IMG/VR virus record: IMGVR_UViG_3300033145_002689
Coordinates: 1-38,010 of that record
Source of the DNA: a virus
Length of the DNA stretch: 38,010 nucleotides
Reading direction: 5' to 3' (one strand)
Shown: positions 1,758 through 30,811 of the stretch, in pieces
Numbering within the stretch: the stretch's first letter is position 1
Layout: each line of letters starts with the position of its first letter
Made by a program: the position numbers and the translations under genes
Notes under the pieces: model-generated
Seen by the model: the letters and a program-made list of their open reading frames with translations, nothing else
Databases searched by the model: none
Told to the model about the DNA's origin: nothing

Positions 1758-3839
1758 ATGGCTACTATAACCCGTTATGTTAATCCTGGTTCTGATGGCG
1801 GAGATGGAACAACCACGGCTTTAACAGGTGCTAATGCTGCTTACGCTTCTCTTAATGCTTGGGAAGCCGCAGAAGAAACAGACCTCGTTACTGCTGGCAA
1901 TATTCATGTTGTAAACTGTGCTGGTTCTACCGCTGACACTATAGCAACTATTACACTTGGATGGGTTACTGGAGAGAGTAATTATATTGAGATAAATGGA
2001 GACCATTCTACAGGAATTTATTCTACAAGTTATTATCGGTTAGAAGCAGCTCCAGTAGAGACGGGTGTTTTGATTTTAGGGCAAGCTTATATAAGAATAA
2101 ATAATCTACAGATTTATCATAATGGAGGTTCGCCTGCGAATGAAGCATCTGCTATTAGAGTGATTGACGATTTGGTTACTTCTGATATGAGAGTAAAATC
2201 TTCTATATTGCGTGGGGGAAGATATACTTTTAGAATTGAAGGTGTTTGTGAAAGTTTCCTTATTGAAAATTCTATTATTTATGAAGGGACAACGGGTGGT
2301 TGTGCTACAACTCACTCCAGTTCTAATTTAGAATTGAATAATGTTGTAATAACGGACTACGGAACTAATGGACTTTTTGAATATGCTGGAACAATTACGG
2401 CAAATAATTGTGCAGTCTTTAACGGTGCGGATGATTTTAATTCAGTTTCAACAATAGATTATTGTGCCTCTGACGACGGCGATGGAACAAATGCGGTTGA
2501 TATAAGCCCAGGGGCAACGGAGGCAGACGACTGGAACGATGCTTTTACTGACTACGCCAATGGGGATTTCAGCGTGAAAAATAGTAGTTCAGTTCTATAC
2601 GATGCCGCCAGTGCTACTTATGCTCCCGCAGATGACATTATAGGGACTGAAAGACCACAAGGGAGTGCTGATGATATAGGGGCATTTGAGTTATCCTCTG
2701 CCGGCGTAAGTGTTACAGTTACTCCGAGTCAACCCTCAGCAGACAGCCGGGAATTAACCCTATCCATCCATGCTCCCACTATCAAGGTTGATCATATTGC
2801 TACTCCCGGCGCAAATAGTCTTAGTATCTCTCTTCAGACCCCAACTGTAACTCCAGTAACTTTAGTTTCGCCCTCAACTCAAAGTCTGAATCTAACTCTG
2901 CAAACTCCCACAATTTCTGCCGTAAAGAATATCACTATTACTCCTTCGTCTTTAAGCATTGTTCTTGCTTTAGCGGCTCCGGTCGTAAGAGCCGGAGCTA
3001 CGATTTCTCCTTCTGCCTTAGGATTAACTTTATCTCTACAATCTCCTTCTATCGGAATAGGAATTTTAACTACACCGTCAGCCTTAGCTTTAACCTTGAA
3101 TCAACATGCGCCATCTATTTTAAATGATAGGGTAGTATTTCCTTCTACCTTGGCGCTTAATGCTTCTCTACAGACTCCGTCTATCAATGTTGATCATCTG
3201 ATACAGGTAGCAACAGCCTTAGGCCTTACATTGACCCTGCAAGCGCCTTCTCCGGTAATTGGGGTAGAGATATCGCCAGCGGCCTTAGGATTGACTGTAG
3301 CTTTAGCTAGCCCTTCTATCGCGCATGATCGGGTGGTATTCCCGGCTTCACTAGGGATAACCATAGAAACTGTAGCTCCGTCTATCCTGTATGATCGGGT
3401 TGTTTTCCCGGATGCTTTAGGTTTAAATCTCTCTCTTCCGGTTCCATCAGCTTCTGCTACAGTTATAATTAGTGTTTCAGCGCTTAATCTTACCTTAGCT
3501 TTAACCACTCCTGATGTTCTACATGATTGCTTAGTAGCGATTTTAGAGGTTTTATCCTTAACCCTTAATTATAAATCAGCAGGAATTGTAACTAATCTTG
3601 CCTTTCCTGAGGCCTTAGAGCTGGTCTTAAGTCTTTTATCCCCGGAAATTATTACTCAGATTAAATGGAGGAGTTTAGATAAACCCGGTACTTCTTGGAA
3701 TGAGAAAAATCCTAGCGCCGCTGTTTGGGGAGAATTAAAAAAACCTGCCGTAAGTTTTGAGGAGAAAAATCCCGGTGCCGGGACATGGTCAGAAAAGAAT
3801 CCTCCAGCAGGTACCTTTAATGAGATAAGTGTAAATTAA
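1758..3839 (+). CDS. Tail fibre/spike: beta-helix N-terminus plus ~13 short beta repeats
   Basis: A 693-residue protein with three parts. Residues about 1-312 look like a right-handed beta-helix: an opening 'MATITRYVNPGSDGGDGTT', then repeated short strands with Asn/Gly turns and a 'GTERPQGSADDIGAFE' closing segment as in many secreted beta-helix proteins. Residues about 315-632 hold about 13 degenerate repeats of 24-29 residues around 'P.(S/A)L.LTLSLQ.PSI', several with 'DRVVFP'. The C-terminal ~55 residues repeat a 'W.EKNP.AG.W' motif. A host-binding fibre is the likely role. DNA for the first part is CCGG-free, whereas the repeats resemble the rest of the genome, so the receptor part may have been swapped in. 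Confidence 0.75.
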   Translation: MATITRYVNPGSDGGDGTTTALTGANAAYASLNAWEAAEETDLVTAGNIHVVNCAGSTADTIATITLGWVTGESNYIEINGDHSTGIYSTSYYRLEAAPVETGVLILGQAYIRINNLQIYHNGGSPANEASAIRVIDDLVTSDMRVKSSILRGGRYTFRIEGVCESFLIENSIIYEGTTGGCATTHSSSNLELNNVVITDYGTNGLFEYAGTITANNCAVFNGADDFNSVSTIDYCASDDGDGTNAVDISPGATEADDWNDAFTDYANGDFSVKNSSSVLYDAASATYAPADDIIGTERPQGSADDIGAFELSSAGVSVTVTPSQPSADSRELTLSIHAPTIKVDHIATPGANSLSISLQTPTVTPVTLVSPSTQSLNLTLQTPTISAVKNITITPSSLSIVLALAAPVVRAGATISPSALGLTLSLQSPSIGIGILTTPSALALTLNQHAPSILNDRVVFPSTLALNASLQTPSINVDHLIQVATALGLTLTLQAPSPVIGVEISPAALGLTVALASPSIAHDRVVFPASLGITIETVAPSILYDRVVFPDALGLNLSLPVPSASATVIISVSALNLTLALTTPDVLHDCLVAILEVLSLTLNYKSAGIVTNLAFPEALELVLSLLSPEIITQIKWRSLDKPGTSWNEKNPSAAVWGELKKPAVSFEEKNPGAGTWSEKNPPAGTFNEISVN

Positions 3840-4865: not shown

Positions 4866-6653
4866 ATGCCTAAACCTATAATAGCGCCTAGATTTTTACC
4901 GGACTTAGGAGTAGATTTATCCAAGGCCGAGGAGTTTTTGGATAAATTAGTATCTCCTTATTCCCGGAATGTGGAGTTTTACGACGGTAAGATGAGGGGC
5001 CGGTTAGGATTACAGAAGTTTGACCCTATCGCGCTATCCGGCCCAATTATGCTCATGGATCAGTATTGGCAGAATGACGGCTCCTGGGATTTAATGGTTG
5101 CTACTACCAAGGATCTCTATAAGTATGACTTCTCCAATACCAGGTTTGATATCCTCACTCCCCTTTATACTACAGGCACTATAACTATCACTTCCGGTTC
5201 ACCTACTATTGTCTTGGGTTCAGGTACTTCGTGGGATACGGAATTACAGGCCGGGGATTTCGTAAAATCCGGGGCAGGGAATGTGAATACCGAACAGACC
5301 TGGTATGAGATATCTACGGTTGATTCTTCTACTCAATTAACGATTACCTCTTCTGCCGGGAGCTTTGTAACGGATTCAGCTTATGTCAGCCGTAAATGCT
5401 ATCAGGGAGCTTCTACTGATTACTGGAATGCGCGGAACTTTGAGGATGATAACCTGGGCCGGATATGGATGGCTACAAACGGGGTGGATTTACCATTGTA
5501 TTACTCAGGCGCCATATCAGCCGTTGATCTGACCGGACTGCCCTCAGGCCTTACTGCCGCTAAGTACATAGAGGTTTATCAATCCAGGGTTATTCTGGCC
5601 GCTACCGTAGAAGGGGGCATTAACAGCTCTTATAGATTAAGGTGGTCTGATCCCGGGGATTGCCGGACCTGGGCGGCAATAGATAAAAAGGATTTCGTGG
5701 ATGAAGATACATGGATAACCGGGATTACGGAATATGATAATTTCCTGGCAGTGTTAAAAGAGAGTGAGGGTTATGTCGGCAGGCCGATATCCGATCCTTT
5801 ATATGATTTTGATTTTGTTAAATCGGATACCTGCGTGGGCTGCCGGAGCAATAATAGTCTTTGGGTTAAGGATGATGGAATATTTTATCTGGGGCCGGAT
5901 GATAGATTCCATAAATGGAACCTTATCCAGGATGCTGAAATATTCGGCAGGGAACTGCTGCCTTTAATGAGGGAAAGCGATCCCAATACAGAACAATATG
6001 TTTACGGTTGGGCGGTTGAAAGCAGAAATCAGATGCGGTGGTTCATTCCTCATACGGCAACTGATTACCAAAATCTATGCGTTGTTTATGATTATGTTAA
6101 AGACATGATTACTATTTGGGAATATGAACAGGCCCAGGCTTTGTCTTGTATAGGAGAATACCTTAATACTGAGGATCTCTATGTGGATGACCCTATTTGG
6201 GGAGAATATTATCTTGATGAACAGGAAGGTTATTGGGATGACCGGTTATTTTTAGAAGGCGCGCCGATAGTGCTTTATGGCGGTTATGACGGATATGTAC
6301 GCAAAGCAGATCAAAGTTATTTAGATGACGGAGTAGTTTATAATCGCATTCTTAGATTAGGCCGGGATAATTATAAATTACCACATATCAATAAACGCCT
6401 CTGGAAGCAGCAGTGGTGGTTTGAATCCGAGGCATCCGGCAGCGTAACTATTAAGTTAAAAAAGGATGATTCTAATTCCTGGGAAACAGATACAAAGACT
6501 ATATCTTTGATCAACGCGACCAGGGATATCATAAAGGAGAATATTACCTGGGATAAAAGAGCGCAGGATTTTCAATATCAGATTGAGGCTACGAATCACT
6601 TTTCCATGCTTGGTTTCATGAATTGGTTGTTTAAAAAAGGCAGGTCATTTTGA
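4866..6653 (+). CDS. Tail tube/hub protein (T7 gp12-like or P22 gp10-like)
   Basis: A 595-residue, mostly beta protein rich in Trp, Tyr and Asp, with repeated blade-like strands ('YWQNDGSWDLMVATTKDLYKYD', 'LGRIWMATNG', 'GIFYLGPDDRFHKW'). This resembles the beta-propeller proteins that plug or extend the tail of short-tailed phages. Near residues 105-170 a module ending 'EISTVDSSTQLTITSSAG' resembles an insert in this phage's capsid protein. It follows the fibres and precedes the GNAT-like gene, matching the T7 order 12 then 13. The start at 4866 has an AAGGGAA site. Confidence 0.65.
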   Translation: MPKPIIAPRFLPDLGVDLSKAEEFLDKLVSPYSRNVEFYDGKMRGRLGLQKFDPIALSGPIMLMDQYWQNDGSWDLMVATTKDLYKYDFSNTRFDILTPLYTTGTITITSGSPTIVLGSGTSWDTELQAGDFVKSGAGNVNTEQTWYEISTVDSSTQLTITSSAGSFVTDSAYVSRKCYQGASTDYWNARNFEDDNLGRIWMATNGVDLPLYYSGAISAVDLTGLPSGLTAAKYIEVYQSRVILAATVEGGINSSYRLRWSDPGDCRTWAAIDKKDFVDEDTWITGITEYDNFLAVLKESEGYVGRPISDPLYDFDFVKSDTCVGCRSNNSLWVKDDGIFYLGPDDRFHKWNLIQDAEIFGRELLPLMRESDPNTEQYVYGWAVESRNQMRWFIPHTATDYQNLCVVYDYVKDMITIWEYEQAQALSCIGEYLNTEDLYVDDPIWGEYYLDEQEGYWDDRLFLEGAPIVLYGGYDGYVRKADQSYLDDGVVYNRILRLGRDNYKLPHINKRLWKQQWWFESEASGSVTIKLKKDDSNSWETDTKTISLINATRDIIKENITWDKRAQDFQYQIEATNHFSMLGFMNWLFKKGRSF

Positions 6654-16630: not shown

Positions 16631-17056
16631 GTGAAAAGAATGTTAAGATTTATTTTAGGGGGTAATCACAAAAGAAGAAAAACTAAGTTACCTAACCCTA
16701 ATTATGAATATCGTATTGTCTTTAAAAGTGGATCCATAGAGGCCATTAAAAGAGCTAAAGGCTGGAATACGGATGCGGATATGGCCAGGGCTTTAGGGGT
16801 TACCAGGGCCTATGTAGCTATGTTAAAAAAGACCAGAGCTACGGTTACCGCTACAGTCATTACCCGGTTAGCAGCTCAGTTAGGGAATATAGAAGGGGCC
16901 TGGTGGACATACTATGAGATAGTACCTTGGGGAGTAAAAGACAAGGAGCATCCTCTTTGGAACTACGAGAAATTTCATGGCCGGATACCTTATAAGAGAA
17001 TTAGTTTGGCTGTTGAGTTAAGGCAGGGAGATTACAATTTAGAGAAAAACACTTGA
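16631..17056 (+). CDS. HTH (XRE/Cro-like) regulator, 141 aa
   Basis: The frame is open from 16568, but GTG at 16631 follows GAAAGGAG at a proper distance, and 16568 would overlap the promoter, so 16631 is chosen. Residues about 35-75 contain 'IEAIKRAKGWNTDADMARAL...TRAYVAMLKK', a helix-turn-helix with recognition helix 'TRAYVAML', and a following helix 'ATVITRLAAQLG'. The C-terminal half holds 'WWTYYEIVPWGV'. With a strong promoter in front and another directly after it, this is probably a transcription regulator of the lysis/ncRNA region. It is a single gene, without a divergent cI/cro pair. Confidence 0.7.
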   Translation: MKRMLRFILGGNHKRRKTKLPNPNYEYRIVFKSGSIEAIKRAKGWNTDADMARALGVTRAYVAMLKKTRATVTATVITRLAAQLGNIEGAWWTYYEIVPWGVKDKEHPLWNYEKFHGRIPYKRISLAVELRQGDYNLEKNT

Positions 17057-17080
17057 CAAACAGCTAATTTTTGATAGAAT
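17053..17080 (+). promoter_or_regulatory. Sigma70-type promoter of a putative ncRNA
   Basis: TTGACA at 17053-17058 overlaps the regulator's stop codon. TAGAAT at 17075-17080 follows after 16 bases. Transcription would start near 17087. Confidence 0.75.
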
Positions 17081-17086
17081 ATCAAC

Positions 17087-17229
17087 AATTATGAATATTT
17101 ACAGATTGCGTAGTTTACATAAGATATATAACACCAATAGCCCGACGGAGAGAAAGAATAATTTAACTTTCGGGCAAAATAGATTTAACAGTCCGACTTT
17201 ACTGTAAAAAGTAGAAGTCGGTTTTTTTT
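17087..17229 (+). ncRNA. Putative ~140-nt phage ncRNA with bulged hairpin and terminator
   Basis: Bounded by the promoter at 17053-17080 and a terminator at 17193-17229. It contains no ribosome site with a useful frame. A bulged hairpin forms from GCCCG (17140-17144) and AAAG (17153-17156) against CTTTCGGGC (17167-17175). It could be a trans-acting small RNA, or an attenuated leader for the SleB hydrolase gene downstream. Confidence 0.55.
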
Positions 17230-17230: not shown

Positions 17231-17276
17231 TGTAAAAGACAAACTTTTTTTAAAAAAATTTTCTTATGTTAAATAT

Positions 17277-17425
17277 GCCATCCAGCAAAAAGGCGATTAA
17301 ATTTACCCGAAGGATTTTTTATGTCTAGACTAACAGTCAGGGGTCAGAGAAGTAACCTTCGGGTGTCTTACCTCTTTAAAAAAAGAGGGTTCGCTGGATG
17401 GCGCTTTGGCCTCCTGACTGTTAGT
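17277..17425 (+). promoter_or_regulatory. Pseudoknot-like RNA structure covering the SleB-hydrolase start
   Basis: Four inverted repeats interlock. A: GCCATCCAGC (17277-17286) with 17393-17402. B: ACCCGAAGG (17305-17313) with CCTTCGGGT (17356-17364). C: 17329-17343 with 17411-17425, 15 pairs including one G-U. D: a CCTCTTT/AAAGAGG hairpin (17371-17388). C crosses both A and B, so it forms a pseudoknot or an alternative fold. B contains the ribosome site (AAGG) of the gene starting at 17321, so pairing of B should block its translation. Confidence 0.7.
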
Positions 17426-17824
17426 TCCGTAGTATTTTTTCTTTTCTGCTTTTTAAAATCTCCACAAGCGTTACAAATAAATCCAATAGCTTTAACAATA
17501 GCCGGTGAGGCCGGCGGTGAAGGCTCCCAAGGTATGTACGCCGTTGCCTGTGTGATACAGAACCGGTCTATCCGGTCCGGTAAGGATCCCGAGCAAGTAG
17601 TTATGAAGGGTTTCTATGGCCGGACCAACAAGGTTACTAAGGGATTTTATCTTATCTATAAGCCTTATATTGACGAGCTGGTCAGGAGGATACAGGCAGG
17701 TAAGTTGGAAGATACTACCGGCGGGGCTACGCACTTTGAGAACATAGAGGCGTTTGGCCGGCCTTATTGGGCTAAGCGGATGATGATTACTAAGAAGATA
17801 GGCAGGCATACTTTTTATAGATAG
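17321..17824 (+). CDS. SleB/CwlJ-type cell-wall hydrolase with signal anchor (endolysin)
   Basis: A 167-residue protein. A long basic N-terminus with eight or more Arg/Lys is followed by one membrane helix (about residues 29-46), then the hydrolase_2 domain. 'TIAGEAGGEGSQGMYAVACVIQNR' holds the expected catalytic Glu (E63 or E67 region), and it ends with 'GGATHFENIE' and 'MMITKKIGRHTFYR', typical of SleB/CwlJ. These enzymes cut peptidoglycan and serve many phages as endolysins; the N-terminal helix suggests export without a holin or membrane anchoring. The ribosome site AAGGA at 17310-17314 lies inside stem B of the RNA structure. Confidence 0.8.
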   Translation: MSRLTVRGQRSNLRVSYLFKKRGFAGWRFGLLTVSSVVFFLFCFLKSPQALQINPIALTIAGEAGGEGSQGMYAVACVIQNRSIRSGKDPEQVVMKGFYGRTNKVTKGFYLIYKPYIDELVRRIQAGKLEDTTGGATHFENIEAFGRPYWAKRMMITKKIGRHTFYR

Positions 17825-18393: not shown

Positions 18394-18444
18394 TCAACAT
18401 CGTCTATGTTATGTTAAATACAGAAAAAAGGGGGTGATAAAAAA

Positions 18445-18591: not shown

Positions 18592-18685
18592 TTAAATTTA
18601 ACCCTGGTGCCTAGCGAAGGGACCGGAGAGGATGCTGTCCTTAACTGACCTCAGTTCTCCTCTCCGGCCAGGGGATCTAAAAGGA
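18591..18685 (+). promoter_or_regulatory. Structured 5' leader of the 18697 gene
   Basis: A perfect 12-base palindrome GTTAAATTTAAC (18591-18602) is followed by nested stems. Outer CCCTGG (18602-18607) pairs with CCAGGG (18668-18673). Inner CCGGAGAGGA (18623-18632) pairs with TCCTCTCCGG (18658-18667), stacking directly on the outer stem. An apical AACTG/CAGTT hairpin sits at 18643-18656. A 15-base bulge lies on the 5' side (18608-18622). The ribosome site AAAAGGAGG follows at 18679-18687. No U-run follows, so this is not a terminator; a protein-binding or ligand-binding leader is suggested. Confidence 0.65.
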
Positions 18686-19203: not shown

Positions 19204-19466
19204 GTTTCTTTAAAAGTCTTGTTTTTCCTGCTCTTATCTCTTTAATAACGAGCAAGCGTTAAGGCGTTCCTCAGGGGTTAAATGATCCGGCTGCTAGGGA
19301 TAGACACGATTCCTCCGGCTTTAGCTCCTGAGGGTAAATATAGCAAGTAAATCAAATCGGCCTTTAGGCAGAAGCTGGTTTGAAGAATCTGCGCATTGTT
19401 TCAGTACTATATCTGCCTTTAGGCGTGGTCTGTAAAAGGAGAGAGGAAGGAATGGTGGAGGTGGGA
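19204..19466 (+). promoter_or_regulatory. Non-coding spacer with long-range stem and duplicated hairpin motif
   Basis: No ribosome site with a good frame was seen. CCTCAGGGG (19269-19277) pairs with CTCCTGAGG (19325-19333), enclosing a loop with internal partial pairing (AGGGA with TCCT). The 10-base hairpin motif GCCTTTAGGC occurs twice, at 19360-19369 and 19415-19424. These could be leader structures or repeated operator sites for the ASCH-like gene that follows. Confidence 0.5.
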
Positions 19467-30632: not shown

Positions 30633-30661
30633 TTGACAATTGCCTGATTTTGTGATTTACT
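30633..30661 (+). promoter_or_regulatory. Putative promoter of the second ncRNA
   Basis: TTGACA at 30633-30638 (in the same ACTTGACA context as the promoter at 17053) is followed after 17 bases by TTTACT at 30656-30661, a weaker -10 element. A TATAAA at 30677-30682 lies too far from TTGACA but could belong to another promoter. Confidence 0.55.
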
Positions 30662-30672
30662 TTTATTTGGAA

Positions 30673-30811
30673 GAGGTATAAAATGCCATATTAAGATATA
30701 AAGATAATTGCAGGGAGAGTTAAAAACTCTCGTAGTATTTATTAACGGCTTTTTGCTTATAGGCGGAGTCGGAGATAATCGTAAAGATTATTTCCGCCTC
30801 CGTTTTTTTTT
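30673..30811 (+). ncRNA. Putative ~140-nt phage ncRNA upstream of the terminase genes
   Basis: Lies between the promoter at 30633-30661 and a strong terminator at 30762-30811, in a 224-base gene-free gap. It holds one tight hairpin, GAGAGTT/AACTCTC (30715-30721 with 30725-30731), before the terminator. Possible roles: trans-acting RNA, attenuator or antitermination leader for the packaging operon, or an RNA working with the packaging machinery. Confidence 0.5.
30762..30811 (+). terminator. Strong rho-independent terminator with long stem
   Basis: Bases 30762-30780 pair with 30786-30804 across a five-base loop (GTAAA), with one mismatch and a few G-U pairs, followed by a T-run at 30803-30811. 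Confidence 0.88.

Follow-up and report, generated by a model that had tools for sequence, protein, structure and literature searches.

The start of the lysin gene in this phage lies inside a cluster of long complementary RNA stems, which raises two questions: whether the structure is more than a chance arrangement, and whether it controls translation of the gene. A lysin that is made too early is harmful. The window (i.e., the whole stretch of DNA that was analysed) is a virus record of 38,010 bases and encodes, in addition to the lysin, a terminase, a P22-type portal, a capsid-like protein and a tape-measure-like protein of 1,935 aa.

Lysin gene and upstream region

The features of the locus are summarized in Table 1. 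The SleB-type hydrolase that the original prediction had placed at 17321 was identified as such by Pfam and PHROG matches: the Hydrolase_2 domain forms the C-terminal part of the protein (Pfam E 2e-9, over the cut-off), and the PHROG match is to endolysins. Among the in-frame starts only the ATG at 17321 is good, with a well-placed Shine-Dalgarno (SD) sequence; no further in-frame ATG occurs before codon 72, and the other candidate, a GTG at codon 15, has no SD. An upstream open reading frame (17267/17276-17329, MLNMPSSKKAIKFTRRIFYV) overlaps the lysin start and is itself without an SD, so that a model of translational coupling was not adopted.

The intergenic gap ahead of the gene measures 264 nt, and a promoter-leader-terminator module lies upstream of the lysin. 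A similar module precedes the terminase operon (30634-30810) and is kept at about 6700-6820 in L009, a related phage. These modules consist of a promoter-like site, a leader of about 140 nt with one hairpin, and an intrinsic terminator carrying 6-9 consecutive U. By analogy, they resemble late leaders under antitermination control, or small RNAs that end at a terminator; the PR'/tR' region of phage lambda is a late leader which is passed only after antitermination. Given this resemblance, the lysin may be under two locks.

Two further structured intergenic stretches were observed in the window, at 18598-18675 (CCGGAGAGGA/TCCTCTCCGG inside CCCTGG/CCAGGG; z -1.8) and at 19268-19334 (CCTCAGG...CCTGAGG; z -2.3), neither with an Rfam match.

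Table 1. Features of the lysin start region and of the DNA ahead of it
Feature	Position	Strand	Remarks
Promoter-leader-terminator module, whole	17053..17228	+	ahead of lysin
Promoter-like site TTGACA-16-TAGAAT	17053-17080	+	5' of lysin
Leader hairpin	17140-17177	+	5' of lysin
Intrinsic terminator, strong	17193-17228	+	eight-U run ending near 17228
12-mer TTATGTTAAATA	17264..17275	+	exact repeat at 18409-18420; just 5' of stem A
Stem A, 5' arm	17277..17286	+	5' UTR
Stem B, 5' arm	17305..17313	+	contains AAGG of the SD
SD AAGGA	17310..17314	+	6 nt 5' of ATG 17321
Lysin gene	17321..17824	+	SleB-type (Hydrolase_2), 167 aa
Stem C, 5' arm	17329..17343	+	lysin codons 3-8
Stem B, 3' arm	17356..17364	+	lysin codons 12-15
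Hairpin D	17370..17388	+	CCTCTTT/AAAGAGG, 7 bp; common to both folds
Stem A, 3' arm	17393..17402	+	lysin codons 25-28
Stem C, 3' arm	17411..17425	+	lysin codons 31-35
Membrane/signal segment of lysin	~residues 31-48		preceded by unusually long basic N-terminus

Stem geometry and competing folds

Stems of 10, 9 and 15 bp and one hairpin within 150 bases had been reported in the original prediction, and all of their arms were found in place. Stem A (GCCATCCAGC/GCTGGATGGC) pairs at 10 of 10 positions and stem B (ACCCGAAGG/CCTTCGGGT) at 9 of 9, while stem C is made up of 13 Watson-Crick pairs (17329-17341/17413-17425), one G.U and one G-C. The claims that B takes in the SD and that C lies on the first codons of the gene also held. 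Stem C crosses A and B, as had been described, giving the arm order A B C B' D D' A' C'.

Folding backs the proposal of two exclusive folds. The A+B fold and the C fold reached -54.4 vs -57.8 kcal/mol over 17270-17430 and -57.9 vs -63.8 kcal/mol over 17232-17445. For the pseudoknot (A, B and D with C) a rough estimate of -52 to -59 kcal/mol was obtained with a penalty of 9.6 to 15, which makes it about as stable as the best nested folds; the energy gaps among the three states fall inside model error.

The states differ in what they do to the ribosome site. The SD is paired, by stem B, in the A+B fold and in the pseudoknot, and is open in C, the lowest nested fold; opening 17310-17323 (SD to AUG) costs 12.4 kcal/mol in the A+B fold and 2.8 kcal/mol in the C fold. 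When the folding was repeated on a growing transcript, the opening cost was 4.4 at an end point of 17358, 12.3-12.5 from 17364 to 17418 and 5.9 at 17424, i.e., the site is computed to close once 17364 is made and to reopen at about 17420. This is the geometry of a sequential switch, off during synthesis of the gene's first 100 nt and free or pseudoknotted thereafter. Fold C leaves the AUG unpaired and places codons 3-8 in a stem from +8, so that C may not be fully open; the SD is exposed there, yet the stem could hinder initiation, which leaves the direction of control uncertain. Since nested folding favours C, RNA at equilibrium may escape repression by the SD route altogether. An RNA thermometer was considered and rejected: the opening cost drops from 8.9 at 10 C to 2.3 at 55 C in a smooth course without any marked step.

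Evidence that the structure is not random

Taken singly, stems of 9-13 bp are close to the background level of the window (15 vs about 9 expected). Three non-overlapping stems within 150 nt occur in the window at this site only, and no such cluster appeared in 60 whole-window order-2 Markov sequences or in 4,000 local Markov sequences. The retrieved loci, 900 kb in all, contained three triple-stem cases, all of them nested palindromic elements on bacterial MAG contigs which resemble dispersed palindromic elements, and none in which the stems cross. The fold z-scores were -4.3 for 17240-17450, -6.9 for the A+B part and -5.4 for the C part, and the lysin start region has the lowest folding energy among the 44 gene starts of the phage.

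Synonymous recodings, in which the protein was kept and codons were drawn from the phage's own usage, folded to -38.2 +/- 4.7 kcal/mol, as compared with -57.8 kcal/mol for the native sequence (z -4.2); none of 1,000 was as low, which shows that the protein sequence does not account for the fold. The longest perfect stem was at least 12 bp in 25 of 200 recodings. The LTV encoded at both C arms favours a C-like stem, and C alone is thus weaker evidence than the whole. The structure is real and non-random, and has very likely been shaped by selection.

Relatives and host

The closest lysins share 38-47% identity with this one over the domain, and the first ~50 residues are not common to them. Comparable stems were absent from the starts of about 20 relatives; homologues without the base pairs also are without the N-terminal protein segment. 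At locus L003 a long-range start helix (AUGGG(A)CCAGCA/UGCUGGCCCAU, 2920-2931/3014-3025) is placed like C, but the start region there folds no better than shuffles (z 0.08) and the helix was not counted. A SleB-type lysin domain was also seen in L002 (2797-3480), in one open frame (227 aa) after a SWIM-type zinc-finger-like segment.

Covariation was sought via the lysin, portal, terminase, endonuclease, tape measure and Omnitrophota genomes, with no homologous RNA found. The nearest phages are L009 by terminase (63%), L007 and L008 by portal (48-51%) and L165 by tape measure (50%), and in their examined DNA this lysin was not found. The place after the tape measure in L165 (7659-8246) holds an unrelated lysozyme-like gene with an unstructured start (z +0.8). 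Lysin genes thus appear to be exchanged between related phages; as the terminase, portal and tape-measure relatives are without this lysin, they offer no homologous RNA to align. No further copy of the structure was found in 50,697 phages, 72,556 plasmids and IMG/VR; the 28 IMG/VR matches to the A arms are about the number expected by chance, and none has B or C.

Our guess at the host is Omnitrophota. Contig L132, of the phylum of an Omnitrophota MAG, carries a terminase 50-53% identical to that of the window, and one of the nearer lysins sits in an Omnitrophota MAG. In L132, palindromic elements that contain inner stems (CACCCCGCCCCTCCGG...CCGGAGGGGCGGGGT) occur dispersed, at 3684-3802 and 5503-5641, a hint at the host phylum.

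Proposed mechanism

The reading we prefer, with a probability of roughly 0.4, is that a cis-acting RNA structure over the lysin translation start restrains or delays translation of the lysin. On the computed folding path, stem B and then D and A would close over the SD and AUG after base 17364. When transcription reaches about 17420 and exposes the 3' arm of C, this stem may displace B and A or join both as a pseudoknot, because the three states differ by only a few kcal/mol. The A+B fold would be the translation-off state, its co-transcriptional capture would block the loading of early ribosomes, and lysin would be translated only from molecules in which C frees the ribosome site. Alternatively, release may come from a transcript starting nearer the gene, which would lose the 5' arm of A. 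The expected outcome is low or late lysin, as for gene e of phage T4.

That the RNA should work as a two-fold co-transcriptional timer is doubtful. In such a timer A+B would shut the ribosome site and C, with both arms in the gene, would reopen or re-lock it, and the timing of lysis would follow from RNA folding by itself, or from a phage factor that acts on the interlocked pseudoknot. Of the lysin switch in the original prediction, the part that stands is that one fold buries the SD and AUG, both in folding and in the growing-transcript sweep; a ligand, protein or ncRNA trigger found no backing (no Rfam match, no conservation).

Alternative explanations

Control of the T4 gene e type in the strict sense is unlikely. 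Under it, long read-through RNA would contain the complete structure and stay untranslated, and a shorter, translatable mRNA would come from a late promoter situated just ahead of, or within, the 5' arm of A. The 12-mer TTATGTTAAATA would set a start near 17281, inside arm A, and in an RNA that starts at 17282 half of A is gone and C is the equilibrium fold, with an SD cost of 3.7-4.8. Both copies of the 12-mer lie in intergenic gaps, the second (18409) in the next long one; it is a possible, if weak, candidate for a phage (late-)promoter element. Against this, the recurrence is weak (3 hits, one with a mismatch, vs 0.74 expected; 2 of 100 shuffles had as many), and the candidate short transcript, unlike that of T4, still keeps the SD-covering stem B.

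Rather unlikely is a static pseudoknot or RNA-processing element, in which A, B, D and C would exist together, the C duplex would be an RNase III type site or a stability element, and any effect on translation would be incidental. The pseudoknot estimate given above agrees with this, as does the length of C, which reaches 22 pairs if a one-base bulge is allowed; the penalty value is uncertain, however, and the exact match of B to the SD is left unexplained.

Another conceivable origin of the long N-terminus of the lysin is an in-frame palindromic insertion (like the Rickettsia palindromic element, or a small inverted-repeat element), with the fold as its by-product. Removal of 17327-17425 (33 codons, 99 nt) would leave a frame that opens with MSSVVFFLFCFLKSPQA, a short start of signal-like character as in most relatives, and palindromic elements of similar size are present on contigs of bacterial MAGs from the candidate host phylum. 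We regard this as quite unlikely: a second copy was found neither in the phage record nor in the 50,697 phages, the 72,556 plasmids or IMG/VR (searched with the C arms), and an insertion fails to explain why two segments of the insert are complementary, as A and B, to the 5' UTR outside it.

A structure due to chance, or a DNA-level constraint (a site of protein binding or recombination) in which the RNA plays no part, would suit a singleton without conservation, but is very unlikely in view of the random-sequence and synonymous-recoding statistics and the exact placement on the SD and start. Antisense control by the terminated leader RNA (17088-17228), which is able to pair with 17291-17345 including the SD, is highly improbable and is kept as a weak lead: the lysin start is the leader's best partner among the 44 gene starts (-30.0 kcal/mol, matched by 0.6-1.8% of shuffles), but the pairing is unused in joint folding of the whole RNAs, and its best stretch has gaps and wobbles and is one among several tests.

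Comparison with known systems and significance

At the gathering threshold no Rfam match was found in the window, permissive hits being at chance level, and no tRNA or tmRNA was found. The stem order does not fit the ribozyme and intron topologies that were compared (group I P3/P7, HDV, twister, pistol). In phage lambda, RNA structure picks between two starts of the holin gene S that lie two codons apart; here, too, RNA structure lies around and inside the start of a lysis gene, which has a single start.

The nearest parallel in working is T4 gene e (lysozyme), whose early transcripts keep the ribosome site closed within an mRNA helix; expression from these long transcripts is reduced about 100-fold, and the block is relieved in late-promoter transcripts without the 5' strand (PMC3014915). 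Both cases concern a phage lysin whose SD and AUG can lie in an mRNA helix (here in the predicted A+B fold), plausibly for preventing early lysis. T4 gene e has a simple hairpin, whereas three interlocked stems with partner arms in the coding region are found here; the late promoter here is a candidate, and the enzyme is SleB-type and not the T4 lysozyme. The likeness is drawn by analogy, and proven membership is not claimed.

Pseudoknots that govern translation are known in phage from T4 gene 32, where an autoregulatory one 67 nt upstream of the start binds gp32 (PMC3014915); in the present case the predicted pseudoknot has the start itself inside the fold. Metastable SD-hiding hairpins occur in type I toxin mRNAs (aapA3 of H. 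pylori, PMC6733600), as do pseudoknots (timP, PMC11228461; tisB, PMC7708055). With these the lysin RNA would share sequential co-transcriptional folding, exclusive conformations and an SD hidden by an arm from the 5' UTR or reading frame; those genes encode a short membrane toxin and have an antisense RNA, in contrast to a 167-aa lysin and a weak antisense candidate.

The original view that no phage lysis switch with this layout had been described thus needs to be divided: given the T4 gene e precedent, an RNA lock on a lysin start is a known kind of control, and the interlocked fold with arms in the reading frame is the new part. If the preferred reading is true, control of lysis by RNA structure would extend past the T4-like group and take in a phage that infects uncultivated bacteria, a bistable interlocked fold would take the place of a simple hairpin, and the locus would provide a compact, testable model for folding-based lysis delay.
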